Assembly (NCBI GenBank): GCA_937128505.1
Contig: CAKZMM010000069.1
Location: 1-50,121 of the forward strand
Direction: 5' to 3'
Source: an uncultured Thermogutta sp.
Lineage (GTDB): Bacteria > Planctomycetota > Planctomycetia > Pirellulales > Thermoguttaceae
DNA: 50,121 bases
Position 1 is the stretch's first letter, and every line of letters begins with the position of its first letter. Shown one piece after another: positions 35,149 to 50,121 of this stretch. The notes under the pieces were generated by a model, which was not told the origin of the DNA, did no database searches, and saw nothing but the letters and a program-made list of their open reading frames with translations. A program made the position numbers and the translations under genes.

Positions 35149-35725
35149 TGTTGGATCTCCTGCAATTGGGTTAGGGCGAAAAGATCTTCCGGAACCGGCT
35201 CCAAAATGTGCACAAAATTCCGAAATGTGGACAAAACGTGGACGAAAAATCTGGGCTCTTGTGCATTTAACCACGGGGAAACAGTCACCGCTAGTCGACG
35301 AGTGGTCGAGCTTCTTCGACGAAGTAGCACAGCTAAAGCGGGGGTGGATCAAAAGTGCCCTATCAAGAACGCTATGGAATACAATGCGTTAAGGAGTCGG
35401 GCTTATGCGGAAAAGTTGTGGCCCCCGGCATATCGCCGAATGCGGTGCTCGAGCCGCTTTGTGCCTGGCGGCCCGAAGCAGCCCCACGCCAGTCGGGGAA
35501 AGCATCGTCTTAGGGCGCGAGGTTTTATGCACAATGATGCAACCGCGGCAGGCAGGAAAGGATGGTCGCCCCGCTAGGCTTCTCGGGAGCGATTCCACAG
35601 TCGCCCCGCCCGGTACGAAAGCATGGATCAATGGATTTTGATCGGCGGATTCAAATCTAATCAGCGGGCTCAAATGCGGCCCCAATCGCCGAGCGGAAAA
35701 AACGACTCAAACGCCAGCAACCCGC
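35149..35725. other. 0.58-kb spacer between DUF1501 and GH109-like genes
   Basis: No gene recognised. A short run of AAATGTGGACAAAA-like units lies at about 35202-35250, 50-100 bp upstream of the GH109-like start. Confidence 0.45.
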
Positions 35726-37126
35726 TCACGCTATAATCTCTTTCAGAAGTCCGCCGCTCGGTGCGCCGTCGTTGCTATCGGGAATCAGCTTCACCAAATG
35801 CCCTTGCGGGTGTCGTAGCGTTGTCGTCGGGTCGATCCCCAGCAACTGATAGATGCTGCCGATCAAATCGGTGGGATAAACCGGGCGATCCTTGACGTAT
35901 TCACCTTTTTCGTCGGAGGCTCCGACGACTTGCCCACCCTTGAAACCACCGCCGGCCACTAAAGCCGAGAAGCAATGTCCCCAGTGATGCCGCCCGCCAT
36001 TCCACGGCGATTCCCACGCGATTTTTGGCGTTCGGCCGAATTCGCCGCTGCACCACACGATGGTGCTTTCCAGAAGTCCACGTTCCGCCAGATCGCTAAT
36101 GAGCGCCGCCAACCCGCGGTCTAGTTCCGGCAACTTGCGCCGCATAATCACGAAGTGCTCTTTGTGGGTATCCCAACCTTTATAGTTGATCGTGATGAAT
36201 CGCACGCCGCGTTCCACCAGCCGCCGGGCCACCAGGCAGGATTGGCCGAACGTGCTCCGCCCGTAACGGTCGCGGACTTCCTGGGATTCCTGAGCCGGGT
36301 CGAAGGCCTTGCCACTATCGCCGAGGATCAAGTCATAGGCTTGTTCTTCTGCCTGAACGAGCTCCTCGATCGGCGGGGTACCCTGCATGGCCTTTCGCAG
36401 GGTATCCAGTTCTTGGAGCATTTCGCGTCGCCGTCGCTGCTGAGCCTCGGTAGTTCCCGGGGTGATAATTCCTTCAACGGCGAAGGGTTGACGAGCCGGA
36501 TCACCCCCCGTGGCAAAAGGCTTGTAACGCGGCCCGAGGAAACCTGCCTCCGAAAATCGCCCTTGCGGCTCGGTGAGAACCACATACGGAGGGATCAAGC
36601 TCGGTGAAACCGGATTTTCGTGCTGAGTGGCAAAATACGTGATGACCGCCCCTAAATGCGGATAAACAATCCGATCGCCCGGCATTCGCCCGGTTTGAAC
36701 CAGATAAGCCGCCGTTTCGTGACTATTGATCCCGTGAGTCATGCTCCGGATCAGCGAGTACTTATCGGCGATCTTGGCTAGTTCCGAGAGTTGTTCGTTG
36801 ATCAAAATACCGTCGACATTGGTGCGGCTGGGCTGGGTGAATTGCCCGCAGTAATCGTAGCCGGCCTTGGGTTTCGGGTCGAAGGTATCGAGCTGGCTTG
36901 GCCCGCCCCATAGCCAAATTTGGATGACCGCCGTAGCCTTCGCCTGGGAATTGGGCTGGGCGTAGAGCAGATGTCCCCAACCCAAACGCGGGGCAAGACT
37001 CAGCCCCAAAAGCCCGAAAATCCCCCGCCGCAACATCAGCCGGCGCGAGAGAGTCCTCGCCCCTTCGCTGGCAGCTTCTTCACCGCCGACATGCATCACC
37101 ACCTGAGCCAGTTCAAGCTGGGTCAT
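35726..37126 (-). CDS. DUF1501 family protein
   Basis: A 466-residue member of the DUF1501 family, which is abundant in planctomycetes, distantly related to alkaline phosphatase/sulfatase folds and of unproven function. The N-terminus has an Arg-rich leader (SRRLMLRRGIFGLLGLSLA) compatible with Tat export. Family marks: IQIWLWGGPSQLDTFDPKP, SLIRSMTHGINSHE, FITINYKGWDTHKEHF, WCSGEFGRTPKIA and GRHHWGHCFSALVAGGG. The ATG at 37126 has AGGAG seven bases upstream, and that ribosome site is part of a 24-bp duplicated segment. These genes usually follow a DUF1549/DUF1553 gene, as here (gap about 260 bp), and the two are thought to act together in the periplasm. Confidence 0.93.
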   Translation of the reverse strand: MTQLELAQVVMHVGGEEAASEGARTLSRRLMLRRGIFGLLGLSLAPRLGWGHLLYAQPNSQAKATAVIQIWLWGGPSQLDTFDPKPKAGYDYCGQFTQPSRTNVDGILINEQLSELAKIADKYSLIRSMTHGINSHETAAYLVQTGRMPGDRIVYPHLGAVITYFATQHENPVSPSLIPPYVVLTEPQGRFSEAGFLGPRYKPFATGGDPARQPFAVEGIITPGTTEAQQRRRREMLQELDTLRKAMQGTPPIEELVQAEEQAYDLILGDSGKAFDPAQESQEVRDRYGRSTFGQSCLVARRLVERGVRFITINYKGWDTHKEHFVIMRRKLPELDRGLAALISDLAERGLLESTIVWCSGEFGRTPKIAWESPWNGGRHHWGHCFSALVAGGGFKGGQVVGASDEKGEYVKDRPVYPTDLIGSIYQLLGIDPTTTLRHPQGHLVKLIPDSNDGAPSGGLLKEIIA

Positions 37127-37127
37127 G

Positions 37128-37210
37128 GTTCGATCTCCTAAGTCAGGATCAGTTGGATCTCCTAAATCAGGATTGTGCCAGGATAAGAATCATGTATTGA
37201 ATCATGTATT
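37128..37210. repeat. 24-bp duplication carrying the DUF1501 ribosome-binding site, plus a 12-bp pair
   Basis: Two adjacent 24-base units (37128-37151 and 37152-37175) share GATCTCCTAARTCAGGAT. On the - strand each contains TTAGGAGATC, so the Shine-Dalgarno of the DUF1501 gene is duplicated 24 bp upstream. A perfect 12-bp tandem pair (GAATCATGTATT) follows at 37187-37210. Confidence 0.88.
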
Positions 37211-37385
37211 GCTATTGATCAAGAAGAATGCGCCGCCTCGTGAACACATTTGCAAAACGGCAACACTTTCGCTAAGGGGTACAAACTCGAACGAATGCTC
37301 CTGGAAGATGTTTCAGCTTAGTCGGCATCAAGGCAACCTCATGCTTTTGCGTATCCTAGTCGGGTATTTGCTTCCAGAGCGCGTT

Positions 37386-39029
37386 TCAATGCCGATACAA
37401 AAATTCCGAGCTATTGACGAGGGCCCACGCCACGTCGATGAGCGAGCCGCCGGATCGCCGAGACGACCCGCCGGAGTACCGCATCACCCGCTCCAGCTCG
37501 TCAGGGGTGGGAAACCGGGAAAGTATCGTCAGATAAAGCCGGGTGATACTTTCGGAATTGATCCGGGTATTGCGGGCCCACTCTAGCCCGGGTCCCTGTT
37601 CGAGCTTTCGCAAGATATGACTGGAATTGAGCAGATGCAATCGCTGCCCGGCCGTGATTCGATTGATGCGTTCCGACTCATACCCCGTGTCCCGAGGCGG
37701 CCGCCCAAATAGCTCCAAGAACGTGCTGGTAATGCTTCCGTCGCTCAGGGCGATGGAGCGCTGCGACTCGGGGATGATCGTGTAAGGCTCGGGAATCATA
37801 CTCCAATAATCTTCACCTGTTTCAGTGATCTGGCAAATCGCATCGATCAATACCTCAGCGTCCAAACGCCGCACGGGGTAATAGGCAAAATGCGTAGCTG
37901 CCTGGGGATCTGTGCTACGCGGGATCGGCGAAAGTTGATAGGTCTGCGAATTAAGGATCAACCGGTACAGCTGTCGCAAATCATATCCCGAGCGCACTAA
38001 CTCGTACTGCAAGAAGGCTAAAACATCCGGGTGGGAAGGGGGATTATCCGGGCGGATGTCATCCGGCTCGTGGATGATTCCCCGGCCGAAAAGCCAATGC
38101 CAAATGCGGTTCACGATTGCTCTGCAAAACCACGGGTTCTCCGGCCGAATCAACCAATCGGCAAAAACTTCCCGGGGATCCTTCTCCTCCGTAAGGGGGA
38201 CCTTCGTTCCGTCGGGCAACACGCCGAATTCCGGCAGCTTTCGGCCTTCGTTGGCTGCCGCGTGGATCGGGTCCCACATGACGATTTCTTCTTTCCACTC
38301 GCCCGTGCTTTTGTAACTGATTTGAGAGAAGAAAACCGCCATGTCCGCCAGACGCTGCGGTGGCCAATTCTCCGCCCGTGTTCCCATGAAGGTCAGCGCG
38401 ACGGTCCGCGCCAACCCCTCGGGACTGCGGTCCTGAGTGGCCCGGTAAAAATTCACCGGCGGCACCCGGAAATTACTCCCGCTTGCGGTGAGCAATTCGC
38501 GGACAAACTGATCATAGGGTTTGTTTTGGGCGATCGACGCTTCGACCCACCGAGCGTAAGCCTGCACGGCATTCGGCCAAAGATTGATGGGAAACTCGGA
38601 TTTGATTCGTAGGACATCCCCCCATTTCAGGGCCCAGTACTCCGCAAATTCCTCCCGCTGTAAAAGACGGTCGATAAGCCGCGACCGTTTGTTGGGATCT
38701 TTATCCTCCAAGAAAGATCGGGCCTCCTCCTCAGTGGGAAGGGTTCCGATCACATCGAGATAAACCCTGCGTAAAAAGACCGCATCGGAGCTCGGATTCG
38801 CCGGCTGGATGCCGAGCTGAGCCAAACGGGGGAAGATGAGTTCGTCGATTTTGTTTGCCGGCTTCGGAGGGCCGGGAGCCTCGTAGGGATGCGCCTCGCT
38901 TTGTTGGGAAAACCCTTGCCCGGCGGTTAGGATTCCGGCGGTCAAGATTCCCAAGACCAAGTAAAACCTGAGCGAGACCAAGCCAATAACCCTGTAAACC
39001 GATTGCGGGTTGAAATTAGGGGATTGCAT
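37386..39029 (-). CDS. DUF1549/DUF1553 (PSCyt2-PSD1) protein
   Basis: A 547-residue exported protein. A hydrophobic leader (FYLVLGILTAGILTAGQGFS) is followed by the DUF1549/PSCyt2 domain (about 60-270; FLRRVYLDVIGTLPT, WALKWGDVLRIKSE) and the DUF1553/PSD1 domain (about 290-547; PWFCRAIVNRIWHWLFGRGI, YPVRRLDAEVLIDAI, WALVNSSEFLYRH). It is shorter than many relatives, which carry an additional cytochrome domain. I see no CxxCH heme motif, so it is not itself a cytochrome. The ATG at 39029 has GAGG nearby. It is the first gene of the set leading to DUF1501 and the GH109-like gene. Function is unproven; a role in periplasmic polysaccharide or sulfated-glycan use is often suggested. Confidence 0.93.
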   Translation of the reverse strand: MQSPNFNPQSVYRVIGLVSLRFYLVLGILTAGILTAGQGFSQQSEAHPYEAPGPPKPANKIDELIFPRLAQLGIQPANPSSDAVFLRRVYLDVIGTLPTEEEARSFLEDKDPNKRSRLIDRLLQREEFAEYWALKWGDVLRIKSEFPINLWPNAVQAYARWVEASIAQNKPYDQFVRELLTASGSNFRVPPVNFYRATQDRSPEGLARTVALTFMGTRAENWPPQRLADMAVFFSQISYKSTGEWKEEIVMWDPIHAAANEGRKLPEFGVLPDGTKVPLTEEKDPREVFADWLIRPENPWFCRAIVNRIWHWLFGRGIIHEPDDIRPDNPPSHPDVLAFLQYELVRSGYDLRQLYRLILNSQTYQLSPIPRSTDPQAATHFAYYPVRRLDAEVLIDAICQITETGEDYWSMIPEPYTIIPESQRSIALSDGSITSTFLELFGRPPRDTGYESERINRITAGQRLHLLNSSHILRKLEQGPGLEWARNTRINSESITRLYLTILSRFPTPDELERVMRYSGGSSRRSGGSLIDVAWALVNSSEFLYRH

Positions 39030-39926
39030 AACGTCCTCTTTCCCGCGGGCTTTTCGCCCCTTGCTCAGGACCGTAAAAGGCCAGTAAAGGTGATAAAAAT
39101 TATCGCGGAGGTCAGCATTGGGGTGGTGGCGCCCCCACGGGGGCCGGACTTTTATGCACGTTGCGACGGGCAGACGGAGCCGCTCTCGGGGGAAAAACAG
39201 GTACTTTGGTCAACTCGGGGACCACGCCCTTCAACTATTCAAACACGGAGCATGCGCTTCAAGTATTCAAACCCGAGGGAGATTCAAACCCGGAGGATGC
39301 GCTTCAACTATTCAAAACTGACCACGGGCGTCGACTAGTCAAAACGGAAACTGTGCAATTGCGGCTGCACGTGGTTCAACCAATAACGATCACCGACGAA
39401 AGCTATGCACACTTACCCATGACCGCCGAAATTGCTGAAATGGCGGTCAAGCCAAAGGAAAGCTACAAACTTCTCGTAAACGGGACGCTCAAACAGTCGA
39501 TAGAGTCAAATAAATATTTTGTTATCCTGTAGTATACTATTGTTAATTCGCGCCTAAATCTCGCGCAGCCGAAAATCGGAGGATCGGTGCTTCGAATTAC
39601 CGAATATTATTGCCGCGGAATAGCCGGCCGATTTATCGGGCGTGACACCGCATGAATTTATCCCGGTATCGCTTTCTGCCGGTTTTGGCTTCGTCACGAT
39701 CAATTTCTGGCAGCTTTCGCTTTGCCAAATTCCACAAATAGGCAGAACGTTATGCAGTTAGTGAGCTTTTGGGGAAGTTTCCCCATTTTATTAACCCCGG
39801 CTGCTGCCAAAGGTTTTGCTGCACGCCGAACCGCAGAAAGACAAAACGCAGCGTAACCCCTTGGTTTAGGATTGCCCTAGAATAGCACGGGTCAAGAGGT
39901 TCGCGCGTTATTCGAGGACCGCCTTA
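39030..39926. other. 0.9-kb spacer
   Basis: No convincing gene. It holds a 27-30-bp array (39225-39355) and an AT-rich stretch (about 39500-39550) that could contain the promoter of the DUF1549 gene or belong to neither neighbour. Confidence 0.45.
39225..39355. repeat. 27-30-bp degenerate tandem array (about 5 units)
   Basis: Units start at 39225, 39255, 39282 (short), 39300 and 39329, of the type CGCTTCAACTATTCAAAC. Unit length varies from 18 to 30, so insertions or deletions have occurred, unlike the strict 16- and 23-bp arrays. Confidence 0.8.
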
Positions 39927-40421
39927 TTAAGCCCCCACTAAATCTGCTTCCACGATCCACAAGAGTCGACCGGCTCCTTCGCGGATGGGCCCATCGAATT
40001 CCACGCAGGCTATCGCCCCTTTCGCCAGGTGCAATCGGTCGGGGGGAGCCTGGATCAGGACGGCCAAAAAGTCGCGCAATTCGGGGGTGTGGCCGACCCA
40101 TGCCACATGCTCTAAACCGGCGCCCTGCTGCTCGGTGAATTGGATCACCTCCGATAGTTTCCCCTCCGGTGCCAACGCATCGCACAGGGACAGGGGACGG
40201 CAATCGCGGAGCTGCTTGATCCAAATCTGCGCGCTTTCCCGACATCGAGCGTAGGGGCTGGCGGCGATCCACTGAGGTCGGACCCCGCGTTTGGCAAGGA
40301 GCCGAATCATGCGTCGGAAACGTTTGCGGCCTTCCTTGGTGAGGGGGCGACGACGATCATCGGGCCAGCGGGCATCATCCCTTGATTCTGCCCACGCATG
40401 TCGAACCAAATACAGTCGCAC
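39927..40421 (-). CDS. sixA: Phosphohistidine phosphatase SixA-like protein
   Basis: A 164-residue histidine-phosphatase-superfamily protein. The phosphoacceptor H8 lies in YLVRHAWAE, the second Arg in ASPYARCRES and the late His in WVGHTPELRDF. SixA removes phosphate from histidine phosphotransfer domains and related proteins. The start is decided by spacing: AGGAGG lies only one base before an ATG at 40427 but seven bases before the GTG at 40421, which also gives the usual SixA N-terminus (MRLYLVRHA). It follows the RNase H-like gene on the same strand at 88 bp and may share its transcript. Confidence 0.88.
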   Translation of the reverse strand: MRLYLVRHAWAESRDDARWPDDRRRPLTKEGRKRFRRMIRLLAKRGVRPQWIAASPYARCRESAQIWIKQLRDCRPLSLCDALAPEGKLSEVIQFTEQQGAGLEHVAWVGHTPELRDFLAVLIQAPPDRLHLAKGAIACVEFDGPIREGAGRLLWIVEADLVGA

Positions 40422-40509
40422 AGCCATTCCTCCTTTAGTTCAGTAGTTGTACACGGACCGATGAGCTGTGGAGATTGCCGGCACTATTCTCCAGCACTAT
40501 ACACGTGGT

Positions 40510-41493
40510 TTACTTTTTTCGCCAAACCGAAGATTTGTCCACACCGAGTCGGTCGAAGGACGGCTCGATTTCCGCGAGGAATCGCCAGGCATCCCTTCCG
40601 TAGCCTGCGGTCGCACGAATCCCCGGTACCGCGGCCGCCCAATACTCCGTAAAGGCGCGCATCGCCAGTTCCCGCAGGTACTTGGCGAACATGGAAGCTG
40701 CCGCCACCGGAAAATAGCGCTCGGCCTGTACCTCGAACCACAGGTGCACTCTTCGTGCGTCGAGCTCTACCTGATAGCAACTTCGCTGCACAGTCTCGCG
40801 GCAAACTTTGACCAATCCGGGTCGGCCATCCTGGAAAAACTGCACGATCTTTCCCGCATAATAGCGGCGTCCGCCTTGCCGATCGAGAAGGATAAGAACC
40901 TCCGCCGGCTCAAGGGTCGCCAAAAGCTCTCGCAGTAGGCTTAATGAGCAGTAGGCAAGGACCTCCCCTTTCGAGGAAAACCGGGTAAGAAGCTCATTGA
41001 ACGGCTTTGCACAGAGAAAGCGGCACCAAACGCCGGAGGCCTTGATCCCTGCCTCGTGCAAGGCGTGCTGGAGATAATCTCGGCGTGCCGCAAGGCTGCC
41101 GGGATCGGTTGCCAGCGGAAGCCGAGGATCGAAGTCGGTGTACCACGGCGCACAAGTGGGGAAGGCTTCCCGCGGAATATGCACCGCCGAGCAAAGAGAG
41201 TCCCAAGAATCGGCGGCATATCCGGCGGCACCCAAGGCGGCAAAGACGCCTTCCTCCAATCGGCTCAAGCTTCCCCCAGCTTTATAGAGGAGCTTCGAAT
41301 CGGCGAACTGGACCGAGTGCTTCCCATTGCCGGTTGAGGCCCTGCGGAACCCCTCTTGAACGAGGTGGTGAATGGCCTCGGGCGAAAGCGGCAGGTGGGG
41401 ATCGTAAATCTCCCAGACGGAGGCGGCCACAACCAGTGGTCCCAACTTCGGCCCGTAGCCCGCCTCGTCCAATCCGAGTACGTACCGTCTCAC
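40510..41493 (-). CDS. Divergent RNase HII/HIII-like nuclease
   Basis: A 327-residue protein, longer than RNase HII (about 200). The fold is recognisable from GLDEAGYGPKLGPLVVAA (D9, E10), the FADSK segment (65-67), ILLDRQGG (D204) and AAASMFAKYLRELAM. In the last motif E275 stands where RNase HII has its fourth Asp, giving a D-E-D-E set as I recall for RNase HIII. The TBP-like N-terminal domain of RNase HIII is absent, and a long insert (about 70-170) separates the first motifs. Expected activity is cleavage of RNA in RNA-DNA hybrids, but the changes make this uncertain. The start is GTG 41493, ten bases after GGAGG; the open frame runs 23 codons further upstream without family resemblance. 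Confidence 0.75.
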   Translation of the reverse strand: MRRYVLGLDEAGYGPKLGPLVVAASVWEIYDPHLPLSPEAIHHLVQEGFRRASTGNGKHSVQFADSKLLYKAGGSLSRLEEGVFAALGAAGYAADSWDSLCSAVHIPREAFPTCAPWYTDFDPRLPLATDPGSLAARRDYLQHALHEAGIKASGVWCRFLCAKPFNELLTRFSSKGEVLAYCSLSLLRELLATLEPAEVLILLDRQGGRRYYAGKIVQFFQDGRPGLVKVCRETVQRSCYQVELDARRVHLWFEVQAERYFPVAAASMFAKYLRELAMRAFTEYWAAAVPGIRATAGYGRDAWRFLAEIEPSFDRLGVDKSSVWRKK

Positions 41494-41916
41494 GGCCCAA
41501 GGACCTCCGGAGCCCGGATTACTGCATTCGACCCGATGCGGCAGGTGGATCCGGCTACCCATCGGGGAGAACCGCAGGCCAACCCGCCCCCTTTTGGCCC
41601 GTCTTCCGCCTGAACCATCTTAGCACAATTGTCTCGAAATAGAAGTACAGCAATCGAAAAGAGCAACAATCTTTTTATTACGTCCTGAACGGGAGATTCT
41701 GCCCCCGCTTGGCGAGAGCTTCTTGCCTCTTGTTCCGCTTTCTCCTATTTTGAAACGATTCTGCTCCTGCTGGGGAATTGAGTCTGACGACAGGCTCGAG
41801 AACCAGTCGACCTTGCGGTCCACCTCCTGCCGGGCAAAAGCGTTCGCCCCGACGTCCTGTGCCGAGGTTCTTTCCGTGCTTTACTCCGCCTTCCGCGCTA
41901 CCACCGGAGGAGGGGG
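41494..41916. other. 423-bp spacer
   Basis: It separates the GTPase gene from the RNase H-like gene. No gene, array or clear hairpin seen. Confidence 0.4.
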
Positions 41917-42831
41917 CTATTTTCGGCCGAGATGGTCAATTAACCACGTAAAAGGTTCGAGCACCCCGTGCGGCTCCACCCTCAACGGAACGACGACTCG
42001 GCCATTATGCGGCAGTTGTCGCAGGGCACACCCCCCGACAATCTGTACGGCAAACACCGCGTACCGAAGAAGGCGCCGCTCGGCATGATACCAAAGCGTG
42101 GGTGCATGGGTACGGAGAAAACCTGCCGGGGATACTTGGGCGGCCTCGCATTGATCGGCTTTGGTCAGAATGATGGCGGTCGGAATCCGGCATTTTCCCG
42201 ATCGATGTGCGGGGGCCAACTCGGCAAGCTGACTCAGTAGTTTGACAGCCAGCAACTCTTCGGCGCGGCATCCACTGCTTAATTGCCCGGCATCGATCAG
42301 GAGCATCGCGGCATCAGCCCGGCGAAAAAGGTTGGTCAAAGCGGGATAATTCAATGGATGTTCCAAAGAGTCCACCAGCGCCTCACCGGCCGGATCCGGA
42401 ATCACCAGGTCCCAGGGACGGCGATCCCTCCGTCGTCGCACTTGACAGTGCACCCAATTCCAAAGCTCAGGCAGCTTGGGGGTGCGGTCAGGAAACTCGC
42501 ATCGCGCCAGTGCCGGAATGACCTCAGCCTGCAAATTGAGCGAAAAGGCACCGCGAGCCAAAAGCTGCAATTCTGCTTCTTGCTGTCCGAGGATGTCGAG
42601 AAGCATCGCAAGGTAGACGGTTTTGCCGACCCCAGGCGCACCGAGCAAGCCGACGCGGTGTACCATCTCGACACTTTCGGCCCGCCACTGACCGAAGGTC
42701 AACGGTGCCCGGCAGTGCTGACATCGCTCGGCGTCGCGGACGTTCTCGGCCTCACAGATCACGCAGCGAACCGGCAGGAGGTATTCGGCAAGCCGGAGCG
42801 ATTGAAGTGGCGTTATTCCCCCGGGACGCAT
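41917..42831 (-). CDS. Zinc-ribbon TRAFAC-like GTPase
   Basis: A 304-residue protein. The N-terminal zinc ribbon has C23, C26, C37 and C40 (CVICEAENVRDAERCQHC). The P-loop follows as GAPGVGKT (64-71), a G3-like DPAGE (146-150; the usual Thr or Pro pattern altered) after a hydrophobic strand, and a G4-like TKAD (223-226) after IPTAIILTKAD. This order fits a Ras-like/TRAFAC GTPase domain, resembling those found in multi-gene NTPase-controlled systems. No membrane segment or signal peptide. It starts four bases after the stop of the FGE-fold gene, so the two are almost certainly one operon. Possible roles are conformational switching or assembly of the partner proteins; none is proven. Confidence 0.75.
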   Translation of the reverse strand: MRPGGITPLQSLRLAEYLLPVRCVICEAENVRDAERCQHCRAPLTFGQWRAESVEMVHRVGLLGAPGVGKTVYLAMLLDILGQQEAELQLLARGAFSLNLQAEVIPALARCEFPDRTPKLPELWNWVHCQVRRRRDRRPWDLVIPDPAGEALVDSLEHPLNYPALTNLFRRADAAMLLIDAGQLSSGCRAEELLAVKLLSQLAELAPAHRSGKCRIPTAIILTKADQCEAAQVSPAGFLRTHAPTLWYHAERRLLRYAVFAVQIVGGCALRQLPHNGRVVVPLRVEPHGVLEPFTWLIDHLGRK

Positions 42832-42835
42832 GGCC

Positions 42836-44071
42836 TTATTCTCCGCTTGCGATCGTTATGGTCCGGGAAATGGTCCGGGAAATTGCCGAGTTATCGGCCG
42901 AGCCGGCTCGAACGCTCCCTTCGGTCGAAGGAAGGGATCCTCGCGTGGCTAAATCCTCCGTCCCTTGGTCCTCGGCCCAGAGCTCCTCGGCAAAGACCGC
43001 CAACCGGAAGCCGATATTGGGCTTGCGGGCCAAGGGCAATTCGGCGCTCTGGAAATAGCAGTCGGCCTGCGAGGGAAAGTACGTATCGAAGGCTCCACCG
43101 CGGATGCTTTTCATGGGTACTTCGGTCAGAACGCTCGGCTGCGGGAACCCCACACCGGTGAAATCGTCTTCGGTCCATTCCCAGACATTCCCCACCATTT
43201 GAAAGACACCACCGACAGTTTGCCCTTCGGGGAAGGCATCCACGGGCATGGTACCCCCGCGCCGCGCGTGCCAGGTGTTGGCGCGGGTATTCTCGCTGGT
43301 TTCGCCCCAGGGCCACCGCCGCTGCACCCGCGTGCCATCGGGCAACCGCATCGGCCAGCAAGCTGCTTTTGCCCATTGGGCATCGGTGGGTAATCGCTTG
43401 CCGACCCACCGGGCATACGCCCGAGCTTCGTACCAATTCACACCCACTACCGGATGATGTTCTTTGCCGGCCTCGAATGTTCCGTGACGCCAAAACCGTG
43501 GGCCGGGCCGACCCGTTTGGTCCGTAAATTGACAGACCGCCGGCCAAATCGCTTCGTCCCATAACGAGGGCTCCTCGTATCCGCCGGCAGCGACGAATTG
43601 TTGATATTGGCGATTGGTCACGGCGTAGCGGTCGATGTAACACCGCGGCACAAAGACCGGTTGCCCCACGACAAGGTACGATTCGTCAAGCTCCGTGAAA
43701 TCCTGCCAAGCCGAGGGCTCTCGTGTGCGGCCAAGGATCACCTCCCCTTCCGGGATCAGCGACATTTTTTGCCGGAGTTGCTCCAAGGCTTGACGAACAT
43801 GCTCCGGCTGCAAACGGGCCGCAATTTGTGGTCGCAAAAGAAGTGCGTATCGCTCCTGCTTCAGGAGGCGGCGGACCAAGCCATCCAGGTTTGTCGGGCT
43901 GTGTGCTTCCTCACCGGGCGCACCGACTTCGTTCGGGTCACAGCCGGCCGTCGCCTTCCGGCGATCCTCTCCCCGTTGGCACCACCGTGGTAGGTGCTCG
44001 GCTAAAGTCGCGATCCACCTCGCGGCTTGTCCGAGCGAAAGTAGTTTTCCTGCGCCGAAAATACCCTTCAT
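42836..44071 (-). CDS. FGE-sulfatase (SUMF1-like, C-type-lectin-fold) domain protein, catalytic Cys not conserved
   Basis: A 411-residue protein with a helical N-terminal region (1-100) and a SUMF1-type domain at about 103-361: MSLIPEGEVILG, YAVTNRQYQQFV, HPVVGVNWYEARAYARWVGKR, LPTDAQWAKAA, WPWGE, VGNVWEWTED, SIRGGAFD, NIGFRLAV. True formylglycine-generating enzymes carry two Cys in a CNRYRCAAR-like segment; here the matching stretch is ADCYFQSAE, with Ser (S342) at the key Cys and the only Cys (C338) out of register. It probably does not activate sulfatases. It may instead use the fold for binding, as in many bacterial FGE-fold proteins. The acidic C-terminal tail of about 50 residues is unique. 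The next gene is the GTPase, four bases downstream. Confidence 0.85.
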   Translation of the reverse strand: MKGIFGAGKLLSLGQAARWIATLAEHLPRWCQRGEDRRKATAGCDPNEVGAPGEEAHSPTNLDGLVRRLLKQERYALLLRPQIAARLQPEHVRQALEQLRQKMSLIPEGEVILGRTREPSAWQDFTELDESYLVVGQPVFVPRCYIDRYAVTNRQYQQFVAAGGYEEPSLWDEAIWPAVCQFTDQTGRPGPRFWRHGTFEAGKEHHPVVGVNWYEARAYARWVGKRLPTDAQWAKAACWPMRLPDGTRVQRRWPWGETSENTRANTWHARRGGTMPVDAFPEGQTVGGVFQMVGNVWEWTEDDFTGVGFPQPSVLTEVPMKSIRGGAFDTYFPSQADCYFQSAELPLARKPNIGFRLAVFAEELWAEDQGTEDLATRGSLPSTEGSVRAGSADNSAISRTISRTITIASGE

Positions 44072-44502
44072 GCTTGCGACCCAACCCGATTTTTAAATGG
44101 CTCTGGGTTCCAACGATGTTGTGCGCCTTATCCGCCTACACTTTTTCAGTGCAGGTACCGATATTGTCCCTTCGGATTGGACGATCCGGCTTGTCTTGAA
44201 TTCATCCCCTCCTGCGGAGTTGACGTATTGCCTTGAGCATTTTCTGCCCCTATTTTCCGCCTGCCGGATCCCCTTCACCTTAAGAATATCTTTAACTTCT
44301 GTTCACCAAAAAAATCTCTTTGCCGGCTCTGTGCCTTTTTATGCTCATGCGGTTTATTCCGGCAGTTGTAGGTGCTTTTTTCGGCTCATCCATCTGCCGG
44401 CATCCGGGGCCTGTCGGCCGGTATGAATTGCCAATTCTTTCGAGATGATTCAATCGAGATTATTCAATGGATCGCGTGGGCCGAAATGGGCAGCCACCCC
44501 GT
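44072..44502. other. 0.43-kb spacer
   Basis: It lies between the coiled-coil gene and the FGE-fold gene. T-rich and GCCGGC-dotted; no gene or repeat array recognised. It may hold a promoter for the FGE-GTPase pair. Confidence 0.4.
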
Positions 44503-45240
44503 TTATGAGGGCGAACGATCCGTTTGCAAAAGCTCTAATTGGGCGGCGACCGCCTGAACGACCGGGTCTGGCGGCACCAAGTCGTGGGTCGGGTTTGAGC
44601 GAGCAGTTTTCCGGGCAGAAGTCGGGGCATCAGCTCTCGGCGCCCCGGTACCGACTCGCTCAAGCCAAAGTTGCATCGTTTGACGGATCGCCGCAAGTTC
44701 GTGCCGAAAAGCCTCGCTTTGTGCGAGGGAAGCCTTTTGTTGTGTTTCGATGGATTGCAAATGATGGTTGAGCACTGTGTGGATGCCGCCCAAAGTCCCA
44801 CCGATTTCCTCCCGAAGCTCGGCAAGCTGCTCGGCGAAGCCGCGAAGTTCCTCAAGCCCGGCGGAGGAATCCGTGGAAACGGATGTCCCCGAGCCTCTGA
44901 GCTCGGCTTCGACCCGGGTCATCAAATCCTCCATACGAGCGATCGCTTTTTTCCAGCGGTCCTCCATGCCTCTTAAGACGGCCGGTAGGTTTTCTGCCGG
45001 TCGCGGCATTGGCGCAGGTGAACTCTTCGTTTCCAAGCGGAGCCAAAGCTCGTGAATGAGCCTTGCCCAACGATCGAGCAAGGCGATGACAAAAGCTTCC
45101 GATTCTGCCCAAAGACCGTCGATTTCGGAAAATGCCTTTTCCAGTGGGGTAAGGTCAATCCGCTCCAGGGGAAGCTCCGGAGTGACGGCCGTCTCAGCCG
45201 CGGGAAGCTGTTCGAGTTTAGTGAGTGCCATGATTGCCAT
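44503..45240 (-). CDS. Coiled-coil protein of unknown function
   Basis: A protein of about 245 residues, not recognised. The central part (about 30-200) is strongly helical with heptad patterning: LEKAFSEIDGLWAESEAFVIALLDRW, LRGMEDRWKKAIARMEDLM, ELRGFAEQLAELREEIGG and FRHELAAIRQTMQLWLERV. It is broken by Pro- and Ser-rich linkers, with no membrane segment. The C-terminal 30 residues are basic, then Pro-rich. Starts at 45246 (GTG), 45240 (ATG) and 45231 (ATG) are all possible, and none has a strong ribosome site. It is on the same strand as, and 430 bp upstream of, the FGE-fold/GTPase pair, so a shared role is possible but unproven. Confidence 0.65.
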   Translation of the reverse strand: MAIMALTKLEQLPAAETAVTPELPLERIDLTPLEKAFSEIDGLWAESEAFVIALLDRWARLIHELWLRLETKSSPAPMPRPAENLPAVLRGMEDRWKKAIARMEDLMTRVEAELRGSGTSVSTDSSAGLEELRGFAEQLAELREEIGGTLGGIHTVLNHHLQSIETQQKASLAQSEAFRHELAAIRQTMQLWLERVGTGAPRADAPTSARKTARSNPTHDLVPPDPVVQAVAAQLELLQTDRSPS

Positions 45241-46277
45241 TTCCACCGCAAACCCTGTTAGCTACCCGTGGCGATAGCCCGCCACGATGCTGAAAATCGT
45301 GACGATGCTCAAAATGGACGATGCTCAAAATGATGGCCGCCCCACTGGACCGCATCGTGTAGAAGGAGCACGCGTCGTTGCTTTCGAAGTCTCCCATCGG
45401 TTTTGAGACTTCTTGTGTTAAACCGCCGCCGCCTGTCAAGGTAAACGCATACCGAAATCAAAACACCCTTTTTTAATCATTCCCCAATGCACAAACTCTA
45501 TGTCGGCCGCATCGCCTGGCGGTGCCCGCGCATATGAGGCGATAGGGCCGCGACTTTCTCGAGGCGGTAAAGCTCACCTCAGGGCGCTGGAGCCGCTACC
45601 CAAACCTCGGGTACTTTTCCGCAAGCGGCGAAAGGTTTTCCGCGGCGAACGGCTTTTTGGATGCTGCGGGTTACTCGAACGATGCAAACTTTACCGAAAA
45701 CTCCTTGGGCCATCTCTGAACCTTCGGCACCGACTTGGTGGAGTTTCGTACCCAAAACCTTTAGCCGCAATTGCGAGGCGTCCCTCTTCTGAAAAGCTTA
45801 GGTCAGCTTCCCCCGCGGAGCAAACCGCGACGGTTGTTCCCATCGCCGAGCTGCGCCGCACTGAGTTGCCGTATGGCTCCTGGGGGTAATTGGCGTGCTG
45901 AACAAGTTCCTCCCGTGGGAAGCGCGGCTAACACGGCGAATGATCGGCGGACCTACCCGGCGATCGCGCAGGGCACACCATGGAGGGGTGGTAAACGGGT
46001 GGCAAGTGAAAAGGGGCGAACAACCGCGCGTGCCCTCAACGGGGGTTTTCGCCCTACCCGGACGAAACGCCGCCCCGCTCATCCGGAGGACAGATGGGCT
46101 TTCGCCTCGACGGGGCTTTTCGTTCTACACGAATGGAACGCAGGGAGGGTCTAATTAGCCCTACCAGAATTGGCTCTAATCAGCCGTAACCAAAATCACA
46201 CTCTAATTATCTAAAAATCAGACTCTAATTATCTAATTAGTCGTGACAGAATTAGACTCTAATTAGTCGCAGCAAAA
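45241..46277. other. 1.0-kb spacer
   Basis: It contains the 16-18-bp array at 45285-45334 and the array at 46149-46290. Frames across 45500-46150 are Arg-rich and lack ribosome sites, and I do not accept them as genes. Confidence 0.45.
45285..45334. repeat. 16-18-bp array just upstream of the coiled-coil gene
   Basis: Three units at 45285, 45303 and 45319 share CGATGCTCAAAATG. The array ends about 40 bp before the gene start, in its leader. Confidence 0.85.
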
Positions 46278-46290
46278 TTAGCCGTACCAA
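46149..46290. repeat. About 26-bp array whose first unit is the 3' end of the Tat-TIM-barrel gene
   Basis: Read on the - strand, about five units of the type GACTAATTAGAGTCTGATT follow one another, several ending in TTGGTTAC- or TGGTAGG-like sequence. The gene's last codons and stop (GGTACGGCTAATTTTG) match the GGTTACGGCTGATTAG and GGTAGGGCTAATTAG copies. The array therefore begins within the coding sequence and carries copies of the stop region. Confidence 0.82.
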
Positions 46291-47291
46291 GGCCGGGTCC
46301 GACCCTCGGTTTTGCGGAGGGCTTCCCGGGCCAAGGCCACGTCCTCAGCCAGTTGGAAGTCGAACATGCCGGCCACGATAAAGTCGGCACCGTGCCGGTA
46401 GGCAAACGAGAAGGCGATCCGCGGATGAATCGCCCCGGCTGCCATCACTTTGAAAGCTACCCACGGGCGCTTAACCGAGGCCATGAACTCGGCCGTCTTT
46501 TGCCAATCCAAACACCAGATGTTGTCGTGGTAGCCGCCGAACTCGTTGCTGGGCGGCTTGTACCAGCACCATTCTTCTCGTTTTTCCGGCGGGCTGGCCG
46601 ACCAGTATCGATCCGGGTGGAAGGTCTTCACATAATAGTCGGGCCCAATCCCGTGCTTTTCGCAGGCGATGGGCGTCTGGAGCGAGTGGGAGCCCACCCC
46701 GGCGGGCACACCCTCGGCACGAATGAGCTCAAGGGCTTTGGCAATCACATCGAGCCGGCCCGCCATGACGTGCCGGTCCGTCACCTCTCCGTGGGTATAA
46801 ACTAACGTGGCTCCTTTATCGATTACGGAACGGATTTGGGCACGCATCGCCTCCGGATCTTCGCTCGGCGAGATGCAGACCATGCTTTGCATCTTGCTGC
46901 CGTAGTGTTTCAGATATTTCACGAAGACATCCTGGCACTTCGGATCCAGGAGGAGCGTGTTGATGCCGTGAGCCTCAGCCAAAGCCAGCGTCTCGCAGAC
47001 TTTTTCGTCCGTGTTATACGCCTTGAAAAGTCGCGAGACGTAGATCAGATCACGAGCATGGGCCCAACCGCCGATGAGGTTTCCCCCGAGGAATAGCCGA
47101 CTAATTCGCACATGTTTGATCTGCCCCATTGGAAGTCCTTCACCCGCGCGTGGCGGAGCTTGCTGCCGATCGGCCCCCTCCTGCAATGCCGCTAAGAGAA
47201 TCCGCTCCTCTAAGCTGTATACTGACCCGGCGGCTGCAGCTCCGGCCAGGGTTTTCATCAGGAATTGACGGCGATCGTCTCGTCGGGGCAT
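46278..47291 (-). CDS. Tat-exported TIM-barrel protein, aldo/keto-reductase-like
   Basis: A 337-residue protein. A twin-arginine leader (DRRQFLMKTLAGAAAAG, residues 6-22) predicts folded export. The body starts ISRLFLGGNLIGGWAHARDL and continues with alternating strands and helices (AEAHGINTLLLDPKC, KGATLVYTHGEVTD, EGVPAGVGSHSLQT, KVMAAGAIHPRIAF, HGADFIVAGMFDFQLAED), consistent with a TIM barrel. It resembles uncharacterised planctomycete proteins related to aldo/keto reductases, but I cannot see the full Asp-Tyr-Lys-His tetrad, so catalysis is uncertain. The ATG at 47291 has GAAGGAG at 6 bases. It stands alone, and its stop codon lies in the first unit of a repeat array. Confidence 0.75.
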   Translation of the reverse strand: MPRRDDRRQFLMKTLAGAAAAGSVYSLEERILLAALQEGADRQQAPPRAGEGLPMGQIKHVRISRLFLGGNLIGGWAHARDLIYVSRLFKAYNTDEKVCETLALAEAHGINTLLLDPKCQDVFVKYLKHYGSKMQSMVCISPSEDPEAMRAQIRSVIDKGATLVYTHGEVTDRHVMAGRLDVIAKALELIRAEGVPAGVGSHSLQTPIACEKHGIGPDYYVKTFHPDRYWSASPPEKREEWCWYKPPSNEFGGYHDNIWCLDWQKTAEFMASVKRPWVAFKVMAAGAIHPRIAFSFAYRHGADFIVAGMFDFQLAEDVALAREALRKTEGRTRPWYG

Positions 47292-48046
47292 GGCTTACTC
47301 CTTCTCGCATTCCAAGGGGCGAACGTGCCAAGTGCTATCGTGCTGCTAAATGCGGTTTTTGGTTGAATGCCGCTCGGTTGTCCTACTTCTCTAATCCAAT
47401 GCGGCTTGGTTATCGTGCTTCTGTCTTGCGATTCGGCGTGCTTATCGTAGGAATTATCGTACTTATCGTACGAATCTGTGGGCGATGACACGTTCTCTGT
47501 TTCAATTCCGTCTTACGCTGCATCCGACTCGCGACGGGGATCGACTTATCCTGGTTTACCCTCGGCGCACTAGCCAGCCTTTATGGCCATTAAGCAACAG
47601 GAACTTGGATACTCAGAGGGCAGGGGGCACCCAGGTGGCTAACCGGCAGTAACTCGTCAAACCACGAATTTATTTTAGTCAAGAACTTCTTGCTATAAAA
47701 GTGAAAGGTTCTAATTCGGAGAGGGTTCGCTCGTAAATTAATGATCTCGGCGGTATGAATTAGGCCGAGTTAATCGCGCCGCGCATCCCAGCGGCCGAGG
47801 GTAGCCCCGACGGCGGGGATACCATTTAACCAACTTGCCGCAGTAAATCTCTGAGTAGTCAAAAGCGGTTTGCTGATGCTTTTGCGCTTGTTCGCCCTCA
47901 ATTTTCGTGGGCAAAAAATTCAATCCAAGATCCTCATTTGGAGCATGTCGATTTTTATCGCAGGCATCCGGTTTCTAATGCGGAGCTTGCCGCTTGTCAT
48001 TGGGGGGCGTGCCACGGCAGGGATGCACCCGGCCGATTCGTATCAC

Positions 48047-48283
48047 CTAAAAAAGCATATCGAATATCCATGGAAAGAAATGGGAAGGATCTACGAAAGA
48101 CGAAAACGGCACGAGGATCTTGATAGTCGCCAGCGTGAAGCCTGCAAGGCAAGCGATTGGAATGACGACAAACCGCCAAATGCTACCGAGGGCAAATGCC
48201 AAACCTTACAGGAAAATGACGATGGGGAAGTCTTCGTTTTTAGGATTCACCCAGGAAAAGATCCGGCATATCTCGCGCGACAT
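48047..48283 (-). pseudogene. Possible decayed small membrane-protein gene
   Basis: An ATG at 48283 has AGGAGA seven bases upstream. The frame reads MSREICRIFSWVNPKNEDFP..., meets TAA at 48206-48208 after 25 codons, then continues in the same frame for 52 codons to TAG at 48047. The second part is strongly hydrophobic (GLAFALGSIWRFVVIPIACL, then AGFTLATIKILVPF). That looks like two membrane segments rather than random translation. Homologues are not known to me. One nonsense mutation in a small membrane protein would explain it, but chance remains possible. Confidence 0.35.
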
Positions 48284-48380
48284 AAATGCGTCTCCTGTAA
48301 CCCGGTTAAAAAAGTGGCAGCGGGAATTCGCGGTGGCGGCGAGCCGTTGACTTATCGGTAACTCATCGGTGCGGTGTCTA

Positions 48381-48450
48381 ATATAACCCAGGCACGGTCC
48401 TCTCGCCAAATCCGGATATAACCCAGGCAAAGTCCTTAACCCAAATCCGG
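48381..48450. repeat. 35-bp tandem duplication
   Basis: Two adjacent 35-base copies (48381-48415 and 48416-48450). Both begin ATATAACCCAGGCA and end CCAAATCCGG, and a fragment of a third starts at 48451. This is the longest unit in the window. Confidence 0.88.
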
Positions 48451-49058
48451 ATATTTGGGGCGGCCGAAACGAACCGATACCGATTTAAAGCGACAATGCA
48501 CGATTTCAAAACAGCGGGTCTCAAGTTGGCTGATGAACCTGATCAAAAGAACTCGGCTGAGGCATTTGCGCCCGGGTTCACTGCTTTCTCACCGCGATAC
48601 GCCTATGCGGCGTGAAAGCCCTCACCGAAATTTGGGGACGCGGGATTCCAGCGTACTCGATTCAGCACTTTAAGATAACCGAAATAATCGAAATAGTAGC
48701 CAATTTGGACTTTTTATGCATGGCGTAGTAATGAAATGCCATCGTTTCTATCGAGTTAGTGGGGTTTAATACGTAGGGTTGGAGCGAAAACCCGCCTTAC
48801 CCATGGACGGCTTCATGCAGAAAAAAGGATGGATTCTTTACGAGCAACCAAAGGGAGTAAGCGCAAGTAGGAAATACGGTCAAAAAGGAGAAAAAAGTAA
48901 AGAAGGAGAAAGGGATGTTGGCTACCAATCGACCCTCAATCCGGAGCGACTCCTAACTTTTCGATTCGAAGAAGTTTACTGATCAATAACCCGGGTCTGC
49001 TACCTAAAGAATCCATACCGCAGTTGTGCGAGCTAACCGCAATAGATTGGTCTCGTCG

Positions 49059-49979
49059 CTAGCATGGCTGAGATTCACTTTCCGCGGGCTTATTGCGATC
49101 TGAGTACTTCACCAAGGTAACTTCGTTGCCCGTATCGTTATAGATCACTTCATCCATAAAGGTCTTCATTAATAGCAAACCACGTCCGCTCGCTTTTTCA
49201 AGGTTTGCCGGGTCTGTGGGATCCGGCAATGAATTGGGGTCAAACCCGGGGCCTTCATCGCGGATCATAAAGCGGGCAGCGTCCCGGGCAAGGCGTGCCC
49301 GAACATAAATCCGCCGGTTACAGTACGGCGGGGTCCGCATTCGTTCTTGGATAAGTCGGTAATAAGCCTCGTCGTCTTCCCCGCGAAGTTCGGACCCCAC
49401 TTGAAGGTTGCCGTGATACAGGGCATTCGCCAGGGCTTCTTCCAGGGCAACGCCGACGCGAGTGCGTTCCCATTCGTCGCAAATCCCCAAATTCTCCATA
49501 ATTTGCTGAAGATAGTTAATAAGCGGCGCAATCAGAACGGAATTATTCTCCAACTCGAAAGTGCATTCGTTGCAGGTCATGCACTCCATAAGTCGGACTT
49601 GTTTCTGCTGGCTACTCGATACGGCTAAGACGTTCCGAACCGTTGCCAGCATCCGCCGTGCTAAAGAGCGCTTGGGGACATAGCTTGCGGCACCGCGTTG
49701 AAGGGCCTGCACTACGATCTCTTCGCTGCCCCGGGAACTGATCAGAATGATCGGGACCGAGGGGTATCGTTCCCGCACCGCCCCGACCAGCTCTAAGCCG
49801 TCCATTTCCGGCATAATGAGGTCGGTAACCACCACGTCCGGCACTTGGTGGGCCATTTTCTCCAGTGCCTCTAAACCGTGGACGGCATAGTCCACATGCA
49901 GATCTTCGTCATTGCGAAGATACTGCCCGACAAGGTGGCGATCCACTGCCGAATCGTCTACGACGAGCACATTCGGCAT
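49059..49979 (-). CDS. Receiver-HATPase fusion regulator (response regulator with RsbW-like anti-sigma/serine kinase domain)
   Basis: A 306-residue protein. The receiver domain spans 1-120 with the DD pocket at 8-9, phospho-acceptor D53 (VVTDLIMPEMDG), switch Ser 81/82 and K103. A short linker with three Cys (ECMTCNEC, about 131-138) follows. The HATPase_c domain of the RsbW/anti-sigma type spans about 145-290: N-box VALEEALANALYHGN, G1 DEGPGFDP and G2 SGRGLLLMKTF. It has no DHp dimerisation helix, so it is not a classical histidine kinase. Phosphorylation of the receiver probably controls partner binding or serine phosphorylation of an anti-anti-sigma factor. The ATG at 49979 has GGGAGGAG upstream. 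No STAS or sigma gene is visible in the window. Confidence 0.9.
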   Translation of the reverse strand: MPNVLVVDDSAVDRHLVGQYLRNDEDLHVDYAVHGLEALEKMAHQVPDVVVTDLIMPEMDGLELVGAVRERYPSVPIILISSRGSEEIVVQALQRGAASYVPKRSLARRMLATVRNVLAVSSSQQKQVRLMECMTCNECTFELENNSVLIAPLINYLQQIMENLGICDEWERTRVGVALEEALANALYHGNLQVGSELRGEDDEAYYRLIQERMRTPPYCNRRIYVRARLARDAARFMIRDEGPGFDPNSLPDPTDPANLEKASGRGLLLMKTFMDEVIYNDTGNEVTLVKYSDRNKPAESESQPC

Positions 49980-50121
49980 TAATGAGTCTCCTCCCGTCCC
50001 AGAATCTCAGCTACTGCTATTTTGAAGGCTTGCTTTTTGGCACTTGGTTCCTGCTTTTGTTCAACGAACCTTAGTCCCCTACTTCTTCAGGCTATCTTCT
50101 TAAGAGCCTCTAACAAAATGA

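Follow-up and report, generated by a model that had tools for sequence, protein, structure and literature searches.

Three genes on one strand of the window

The window analyzed here is the whole 50,121-nt stretch of contig CAKZMM010000069.1 (assembly GCA_937128505.1), from the genome of an uncultured Thermogutta sp. that is 98.26% complete in 198 contigs. Our subject is a set of three genes on its minus strand, which encode a GTPase of the DO-GTPase family, a protein with the fold of formylglycine-generating enzyme (FGE) and C-type lectins, and a helical protein (table 1). A reading made from the letters alone (the sequence-only reading) had proposed that these genes form an undescribed three-gene system of conflict or signaling. 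We favor, with restrained confidence, the hypothesis that the set is a Ras-like GTPase signaling switch that is linked to chemosensory (Che) genes in some lineages and is reduced in the window genome.

All three open reading frames (ORFs) were confirmed. As had been read, the GTPase gene follows the FGE-fold gene closely, with 4 nt between stop and start; over the 62 loci scored, the in-frame GTPase start nearest the FGE stop shows a 4-nt overlap with it in 51 and lies far from it in 6. The upstream protein, previously called a coiled coil, does share the strand and does have helical homologs, but its gene is 431 nt away from the FGE-fold gene and is not tightly coupled to it. Its ORF also extends 6 nt beyond position 45240, where the set had been thought to end.

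Table 1. Features of the gene set, in window positions. Motif conservation is counted over 35 aligned sequences, the window among them, except for the helical protein.
Feature	Position	Strand	Remarks
DO-GTPase, Ras-like P-loop GTPase with N-terminal zinc ribbon	41917..42831	-	304 aa; Pfam DO-GTPase1/2
Zinc ribbon CxxC...CxxC, residues 23-40	42712..42765	-	C23, C26, C37 and C40 invariant, 35/35
P-loop GAPGVGKT, residues 64-71	42619..42642	-	G64, G69, K70 and T71 invariant, 35/35
DxxGE motif, residues 146-150	42382..42396	-	D146 and G149 35/35; E150 31/35, D in 4/35
[T/S]KxD motif, residues 223-226	42154..42165	-	K224 and D226 35/35
FGE/C-type-lectin-fold protein	42836..44071	-	411 aa; FGE domain residues 102-358; PF03781
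RGGAFDTY, residues 324-331, conserved, where FGE has its cysteine loop	43079..43102	-	from the 8aru alignment
Helical scaffold protein, homolog of relatives' upstream gene	44503..45246	-	247 aa; GTG start; profile E 2e-7
Helical C-terminal motif DPVVQAVAAQLELLQTD	44518..44568	-	relatives' consensus DPVLxSVxAQFExLQxDxxRRR; Q236 invariant, 26/26
Gap of 354 nt, site of GAP1-N2 in most relatives	41563..41916	-	next gene is an RNase HII-like ORF

The earlier identification of a zinc-ribbon GTPase was borne out: DO-GTPase1 (E 6.5e-17) and DO-GTPase2 (E 7.4e-14) of Pfam both match above their curated cut-offs, and all four ribbon cysteines are invariant. The DZR_2 match on the ribbon itself is weak (E 9.5e-5) and under the cut-off. 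This is the single DO-GTPase of the window genome (one match at E 0.001), with no paralogous second GTPase, and it is 38-46% identical to its relatives. Its predicted model, with a mean predicted local distance difference test (pLDDT) score of 79, is Ras/Rab/Arf-like, the best match being Arl2 (Z 16.9, 163 residues, 2.7 Å).

The product of the middle gene carries a nearly full-length match to PF03781 (FGE-sulfatase; E 1.7e-43), and the solved sequences closest to it are EgtB (4x8b, E 8e-23), then OvsA, CalU17 and FGE. These matches could be taken to mean that the protein is itself an EgtB- or FGE-like oxidase or sulfur-transfer enzyme and that the GTPase is its metallochaperone or maturation factor; some G3E GTPases with zinc sites do serve metalloenzymes. 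We regard this as very improbable. The EgtB match is confined to the lectin-fold part (EgtB residues 202-367), and the iron ligands of EgtB presumably sit in its other domain, outside that part. In an alignment to the solved formylglycine-generating enzyme 8aru, the places of the two cysteines that we take to be catalytic are held in the window protein by T330, which is invariant in all 35 sequences, and by P333, at a position that is D, E or P in all 35. Since neither place holds a cysteine in any of these sequences, the window protein lacks the catalytic pair, in agreement with the sequence-only reading; the Ras/Arf-like model of the GTPase argues against the enzyme hypothesis as well. Within the conserved RGGAFDTY, residues 324-327, 330 and 331 are invariant in the 35 sequences, 328 is F or Y and 329 is D or N.

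In the signaling switch that we prefer, the FGE-fold protein would be a non-catalytic module. It is 41-48% identical to its relatives and thus not more variable than the GTPase. By a simple 19-residue hydropathy window, the window protein has no hydrophobic N-terminal segment; such a segment is present in 56 of the 72 scorable loci of the window's type (the window counted), with two segments in 36, and in 0 of 15 loci of the operon type described below, 15 loci being not scorable.

The helical protein has no Pfam match above a curated cut-off. It does match a profile built solely from the upstream proteins of other genomes, and an alignment with 25 relatives gives identities of 14-23%, as befits a fast-evolving protein; the N- and C-terminal parts are kept within the family, and the middle varies in length. 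Judged from its composition and its homologs, it may be a coiled coil.

Conservation of the set and absence of GAP1

Among the 147 genomes nearest to the window (its own included), the GTPase is present in 65, as a single match in 63 and as two partial matches in 2, and it has no match in G001 and G002, which belong to the window's genus. We scored 64 loci, that is, 63 from other genomes and the window. A distant paralog without partners (G095, E 2.9e-8) was left out, as was a match that runs off its contig (G013; locus L049, which probably lies on that contig, contains scaffold, FGE and GTPase). Each partner was counted over the orthologous loci whose flank is long enough to show it. All 59 loci with a flank of 600 nt or more have the FGE gene directly upstream of the GTPase gene, and all 50 with 2500 nt or more have the helical protein; in 59 of the 61 with 800 nt or more, the GTPase gene is followed by a fourth one, GAP1-N2. 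The profiles used for these counts and for the operons below were built from many of the counted loci, which therefore match by construction, and the window was kept out of the neighborhood profiles. In 40 further loci of the class, FGE adjoins the GTPase in 40, GAP1 is found in 38, and the scaffold profile matches in 20. Based on these counts, the gene set is more than a chance association. The three genes thus form a conserved set, as had been proposed, and over the orthologous loci they were not found apart. They are not the whole of it, however, because the relatives carry a fourth gene that the window lacks. This gene is GAP1-N2 by Pfam in 5 of 5 proteins tested, with GAP1-M matches under the cut-off.

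Phylum-wide, the GTPase profile at E 1e-20 matches 9 of 392 genomes, and each of the 9 belongs to the class of the window. In a tree of 99 joined GTPase and FGE rows, the 19 family labels need 18 changes, which is the minimum; taken singly, f16 needs 4 changes and f2 needs 2, and the window's family has a support of 81 (not starred). The presence of the GTPase is patchy within families, which means that losses are common.

DO-GTPases and GAP1 were named by Kaur et al. (2020, PMC7159879), who read them as conflict systems with variable effectors and who mention, in the accessible text of that paper, GAP1-N2 systems in planctomycetes among others and FGS-domain effectors in some of the planctomycete ones. 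The combination of genes is therefore already known, in one sentence, and the claim of an undescribed system falls: in outline the system is mostly not new, and the window's form of it is one without GAP1. Like the published systems, the window has a DO-GTPase with an N-terminal zinc ribbon and a Walker B glutamate (E150), and its relatives have GAP1-N2 downstream; the FGS (FGE) domain is shared with some planctomycete systems. The window differs in that it has no GAP1, no variable effector and no second GTPase (two paralogous GTPases occur in 38% of the published systems and are hence not required), in that it has one zinc ribbon, whereas GAP1-N2-type GTPases usually have two (PMC7159879), and in that none of nine window proteins has an FNIII match in Pfam. 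The conserved helical scaffold is not mentioned in the accessible text of that paper, and the chemosensory operon of other lineages is a further difference; the words longin, DENN, roadblock, CheA and chemotaxis have 0 occurrences in its main text. A member of the DO-GTPase family also occurs in some Psp operons, where it is predicted to act in membrane stress (PMC11237479, accessible text). In the literature searched, the DO-GTPase name turned up in these two computational papers and in no experimental one, and neither the helical partner, the Che operon linkage, a longin/DENN resemblance of GAP1 nor a GAP1-less form was found in the literature searched.

If the set were such a conflict system, directed against invaders, GAP1 would be the sensor, the GTPase would be a threshold switch, and the FGE-fold protein would bind molecules of the invader, as an effector without enzyme activity or as a decoy. 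The domain content matches this hypothesis, down to the FGS-domain effectors, as does the patchy presence in 65 of 147 genomes, and an FGE-fold protein and a zinc-ribbon GTPase would suit a sensor and switch pair. Several lines of evidence nevertheless lead us to hold it unlikely. No extra neighbor gene occurs in more than 27 of 103 clustered loci, and those that recur are divergent neighbors, so that no variable effector stands out. The FGE-fold protein does not exceed the GTPase in variability, the families cluster at the minimum number of changes, and a PADLOC scan of five proteins gave a sole match of E 0.034 (RT_UG21, on the helical protein), which we take as coil noise. The neighbors are in part housekeeping-like by eye, with a carA-like gene in 21 and an aminotransferase-like gene in 14 of 104 loci, and in other lineages the genes lie in a Che operon. 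Given the lack of variable effectors, the lack of defense-family matches and the Che linkage, we demote the conflict reading. Of the two possibilities offered by the sequence-only reading, conflict is weakened by the PADLOC result and by inheritance that is largely within families, and signaling gains from the operon in distant lineages.

In 27 of 104 loci (e.g., L178:2119-2634), a small cysteine-rich protein that by eye looks secreted has its gene upstream of the set, in divergent orientation, and a gene for a small membrane protein often adjoins it (19 of 104). The neighbor names carA, aminotransferase, proA, fliM and "Cys-rich" were given by eye and not by family search.

Single-sequence and profile searches found no GAP1 in window positions 34001-50121 or in the whole window genome. 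The sole profile match there (E 0.034) is the C-terminal end of an ORF that looks by eye like a substrate-binding protein, and it was rejected. As a control, the profile recovered GAP1 in 6 of 6 expected genomes (G009, G039, G020, G105 and G203, and a short form in G113). It found nothing in G111, G311 and G396, which keep GTPase and FGE; G111 and the window are the two loci without GAP1-N2 among the 61. The short form of G113 (locus L108, family f7) covers profile positions 361-456 of 457, the C-terminal domain alone, which suggests, from the one f7 genome checked by profile position, that this family has lost GAP1-N2/M and kept GAP1-C. The GAP1 of operon-type G203 shows the reverse, matching positions 4-242 only; thus the GAP1 domains seem to be lost separately.

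The GTPase has drifted where GAP1 is missing. In the window it deviates at 20 of 91 positions that are conserved in loci with full GAP1, and the window FGE deviates at 5 of 87 (1 of 79 under a stricter choice of positions). In a comparison that leaves out two loci whose downstream side is cut off, the 11 loci with absent GAP1 (4) or short GAP1 (7, all f7) hold the 11 most deviant GTPases of 75, with a median deviation of 26% versus 2.2% in the 64 full loci, among which the highest value is 10.6%. For FGE the corresponding figures are 5.7% and 3.4%, and L146 reaches 15/87. The direction of this drift suggests that the N-terminal part of GAP1 constrains the GTPase more than the FGE-fold protein.

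This drift could also mean that the window set is a decaying remnant that has lost GAP1 and the membrane segment and whose scaffold is diverging. The window's deviant GTPase and absent GAP1 would fit, as would its end branch in the GTPase and FGE tree (1.4 versus a median of 0.32) and the two congeners without a GTPase match. On the other hand, the ORFs are all intact, the 4-nt spacing, catalytic motifs and zinc ribbon are kept, the FGE-fold protein deviates at very few positions, and the GAP1-less G111, G311 and G396 also retain GTPase and FGE. We therefore consider decay a serious candidate, though rather unlikely, and continue with the signaling switch in a reduced form.

The gene set in chemosensory operons of other lineages

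In families f21 and f22 and in part of f16, the gene set is the tail of one chemosensory operon. Pfam assignments over the whole operon of locus L185 give a CheY-like receiver, CheW, a methyl-accepting chemotaxis protein (MCP), CheA, a response regulator (RR) with DUF4388, an FHA protein, a short helical protein without match, FGE, DO-GTPase and GAP1-N2. CheA has Hpt, HATPase, CheW and receiver domains, and the FHA protein has a long helical part. Loci L184 and L186 were assigned in part (L184 for three genes only), so that CheY, CheW and the FHA protein are identified by Pfam in L185 and L186. DUF4388 we take to overlap the PATAN domain of pilus-related regulators; the papers searched speak of PATAN only.

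The genes from MCP to GAP1 are contiguous in 17 of the 20 loci taken at 20 kb, as scored with profiles made from these same loci. The other three are G311 and G396, which have FGE and GTPase only, and G212, in which the Che half and the FGE-GTPase-GAP1 half are both kept on different contigs with other genes around them, the Che half being followed by an unrelated ORF. The Che and GTPase genes of G271 also lie on different contigs; the Che contig, 5,550 bases long, stops shortly after the gene for the short helical protein, and this split may therefore be a mere assembly break.

The association also holds across genomes. Of 397 genomes of the class, 78 have the GTPase, 43 the RR/DUF4388 protein and 32 both; the GTPase and RR searches are taken to cover the identical 397 genomes, as inferred from set size and handles. 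With GTPase types assigned by hand from family and score, RR/DUF4388 occurs in 32 of 33 genomes with the operon type, in 0 of 45 with the other type and in 11 of 319 without the GTPase. The RR/DUF4388 matches of G232, G226, G298, G185 and G301 each have one internal TGA in the reported frame.

Could Che genes also be the missing input of the window genome? This candidate was rejected, since the RR/DUF4388 profile found nothing there and the control search found it in 43 of the 397 genomes. A CheA profile matches, in the window genome, a single CheA-like ORF along with seven receiver domains, without further link. The Che link is thus a fact for more distant relatives and an extrapolation for the window genome.

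A proposed Ras-like switch and its possible regulator

The nature of the presumed regulator was approached through a predicted model of GAP1 from the relative locus L034 (mean pLDDT 82.6, with residues 299-354 under 50). The leading Foldseek matches are FLCN-FNIP2, C9orf72-SMCR8, DENND10 and TagF chains. In a second fold comparison, 28 of the first 33 rows are proteins of longin, DENN or roadblock type or complexes with them (some of these assignments being our own assumption), 3 are TagF and 2 are TFIID. In favor of the longin/DENN match, one family of GTPase regulators fills the top of the list and GAP1 adjoins a Ras-like GTPase. The longin/DENN regulators DENND1, FLCN-FNIP and C9orf72-SMCR8 may resemble GAP1 in its predicted fold over residues 1-290, and they, too, have a Ras-like GTPase as partner; they differ from it in sequence (8-10% identity in the DENND rows), the scores are weak, and no d-DENN part is shown. 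According to Zhang et al. (2012, PMC3521125, accessible text), longin domains go back to roadblock regulators of prokaryotes, and the DENN module is regarded as a eukaryotic one.

Three considerations support the signaling switch: the genes largely follow families, they end an MCP/CheA/DUF4388-RR/FHA operon in other lineages, and the predicted fold of GAP1 is most like longin/DENN regulators of Ras-like GTPases, next to a GTPase whose model is Ras/Arf-like. In this class of planctomycetes, the proposed module in its full four-gene form runs from helical scaffold to FGE-fold protein, Ras-like DO-GTPase and GAP1. The GTPase would cycle between GTP and GDP forms, and GAP1, as a longin/DENN-type-looking regulator, would set its nucleotide state. 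The FGE-fold protein would bind a protein or ligand without catalysis; most relatives that share the window's type have hydrophobic segments at its N-terminus, which may anchor it to the membrane. The helical protein would assemble the complex. These roles of switch, non-enzymatic module and scaffold are those that the sequence-only reading had suggested, and they fit the data. In the distant lineages, the input would come from an MCP/CheA/DUF4388-RR chemosensory array and be relayed through the FHA/coiled-coil protein. Because searches in the window's lineage gave no linked Che genes, and because GAP1 and the membrane segment are missing from the window, the remaining scaffold, FGE-fold protein and GTPase may work with another regulator or be on their way out.

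A number of observations weigh against this hypothesis. On the side of the fold, the best Foldseek E-value of the GAP1 model is 1.8e-3, with none below 0.001, and the best row of the second comparison, DENND1A (Z 8.3, 243 aligned, 5.0 Å), followed by DENND1B (8.1), TagF (9t0n, 8.1) and DENND10 (7.7), is near noise, the tool itself warning that models lacking a clear match typically reach a best Z of 7-8. A GAP1 sequence profile run against the PDB found no DENN or longin chain, its one match being TatB at E 0.44, and a GTPase profile matched FtsY and chains of ABC type only, none of them better than E 0.05. On the side of the operon, the eleven genomes with the RR/DUF4388 Che part and no GTPase are all of f22, and in the ten of them that were examined MCP-CheA-RR-FHA is whole in 8 and cut by contig ends in 2; the Che part therefore does not need the GTPase. 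The RR/DUF4388 profile (E 1e-40) matches 0 of the 147 genomes nearest to the window, its own included, so that the Che link may not describe the input of the window genome. Operon-type genes of f16 nest with those of f22, another order, in the GTPase and FGE tree, which implies transfer or ancient duplication there. As to the drift, the rank test applied to the GTPases gives a difference for FGE as well (P 6e-5), and since there are only about three or four independent losses, with 7 of the 11 rows from one family, little reliance should be placed on the P values. Finally, the reading of the superfamily as conflict systems with variable effectors (PMC7159879, accessible text) may hold for other members.

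We also put forward a bolder proposition, which we consider possible but doubtful: that bacteria have a longin-DENN module in GAP1-N2/GAP1-M, and that this module is the genuine guanine nucleotide exchange factor or GTPase-activating protein (GAP) of the DO-GTPase. Together with FGE and scaffold it would form a switch under Che control in whole families, parallel to Rab-DENND and Rag-FLCN; many loci read as conflict systems would be such switches, and loss of the GAP1 N-terminal part would free the surface of the GTPase to drift. The main interest lies in the relatives, with their Che operon and possible DENN-like regulator; the window is a case in which the regulator was lost in nature. The alternative to the conflict reading would be a Ras-like GTPase that has a longin/DENN-like regulator and, in whole families, is tied to a chemosensory operon. 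If GAP1 is of DENN type, a fold of Rab and Rag regulators exists in bacteria beside a Ras-like partner, which would bear on the origin of eukaryotic GTPase control.

Two bacterial systems offer partial parallels. The MglA/MglB polarity switch of Myxococcus, in the accessible accounts of it, likewise has a small Ras-like GTPase, a roadblock-type GAP and RomR with a receiver domain. GAP1, however, did not come out as MglB. The Mgl switch also has a chemosensory input, Frz, and we know of no counterpart in it to FGE, FHA or the zinc ribbon. The threonine-phosphorylation pathway of the type VI secretion system (T6SS) has FHA and FGE-fold members, and its TagF is among the best fold matches of GAP1. 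To our knowledge it has no GTPase, and among 19 Pfam-scanned operon proteins we found no T6SS family apart from the FHA protein's weak match to Yop-YscD_cpl.

Among the f22 loci without GTPase, L224, L225, L227, L228, L229, L232 and L233 have the Che genes followed by a scaffold-like gene (7 of 8 such loci). By eye, the N-terminus of its product is like the helical scaffold, and the C-terminus is a different globular domain.

Around the set in the window, all on the minus strand, lie three further ORFs. A 337-aa protein without Pfam match (46278-47291) has a start that looks twin-arginine-like by eye. About 7 kb from the GTPase, 49059-49979 encodes a receiver domain fused to an HATPase_c_2 kinase-like domain, with no link to the set shown; this is one of the CheA-profile matches of the window genome. 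The product of the ORF next to the GTPase (40510-41562), 350 aa long, resembles RNase HII (RNase_HII E 2.2e-7, with residues 29-50 only as its best stretch) and looks like a divergent RNase H relative.

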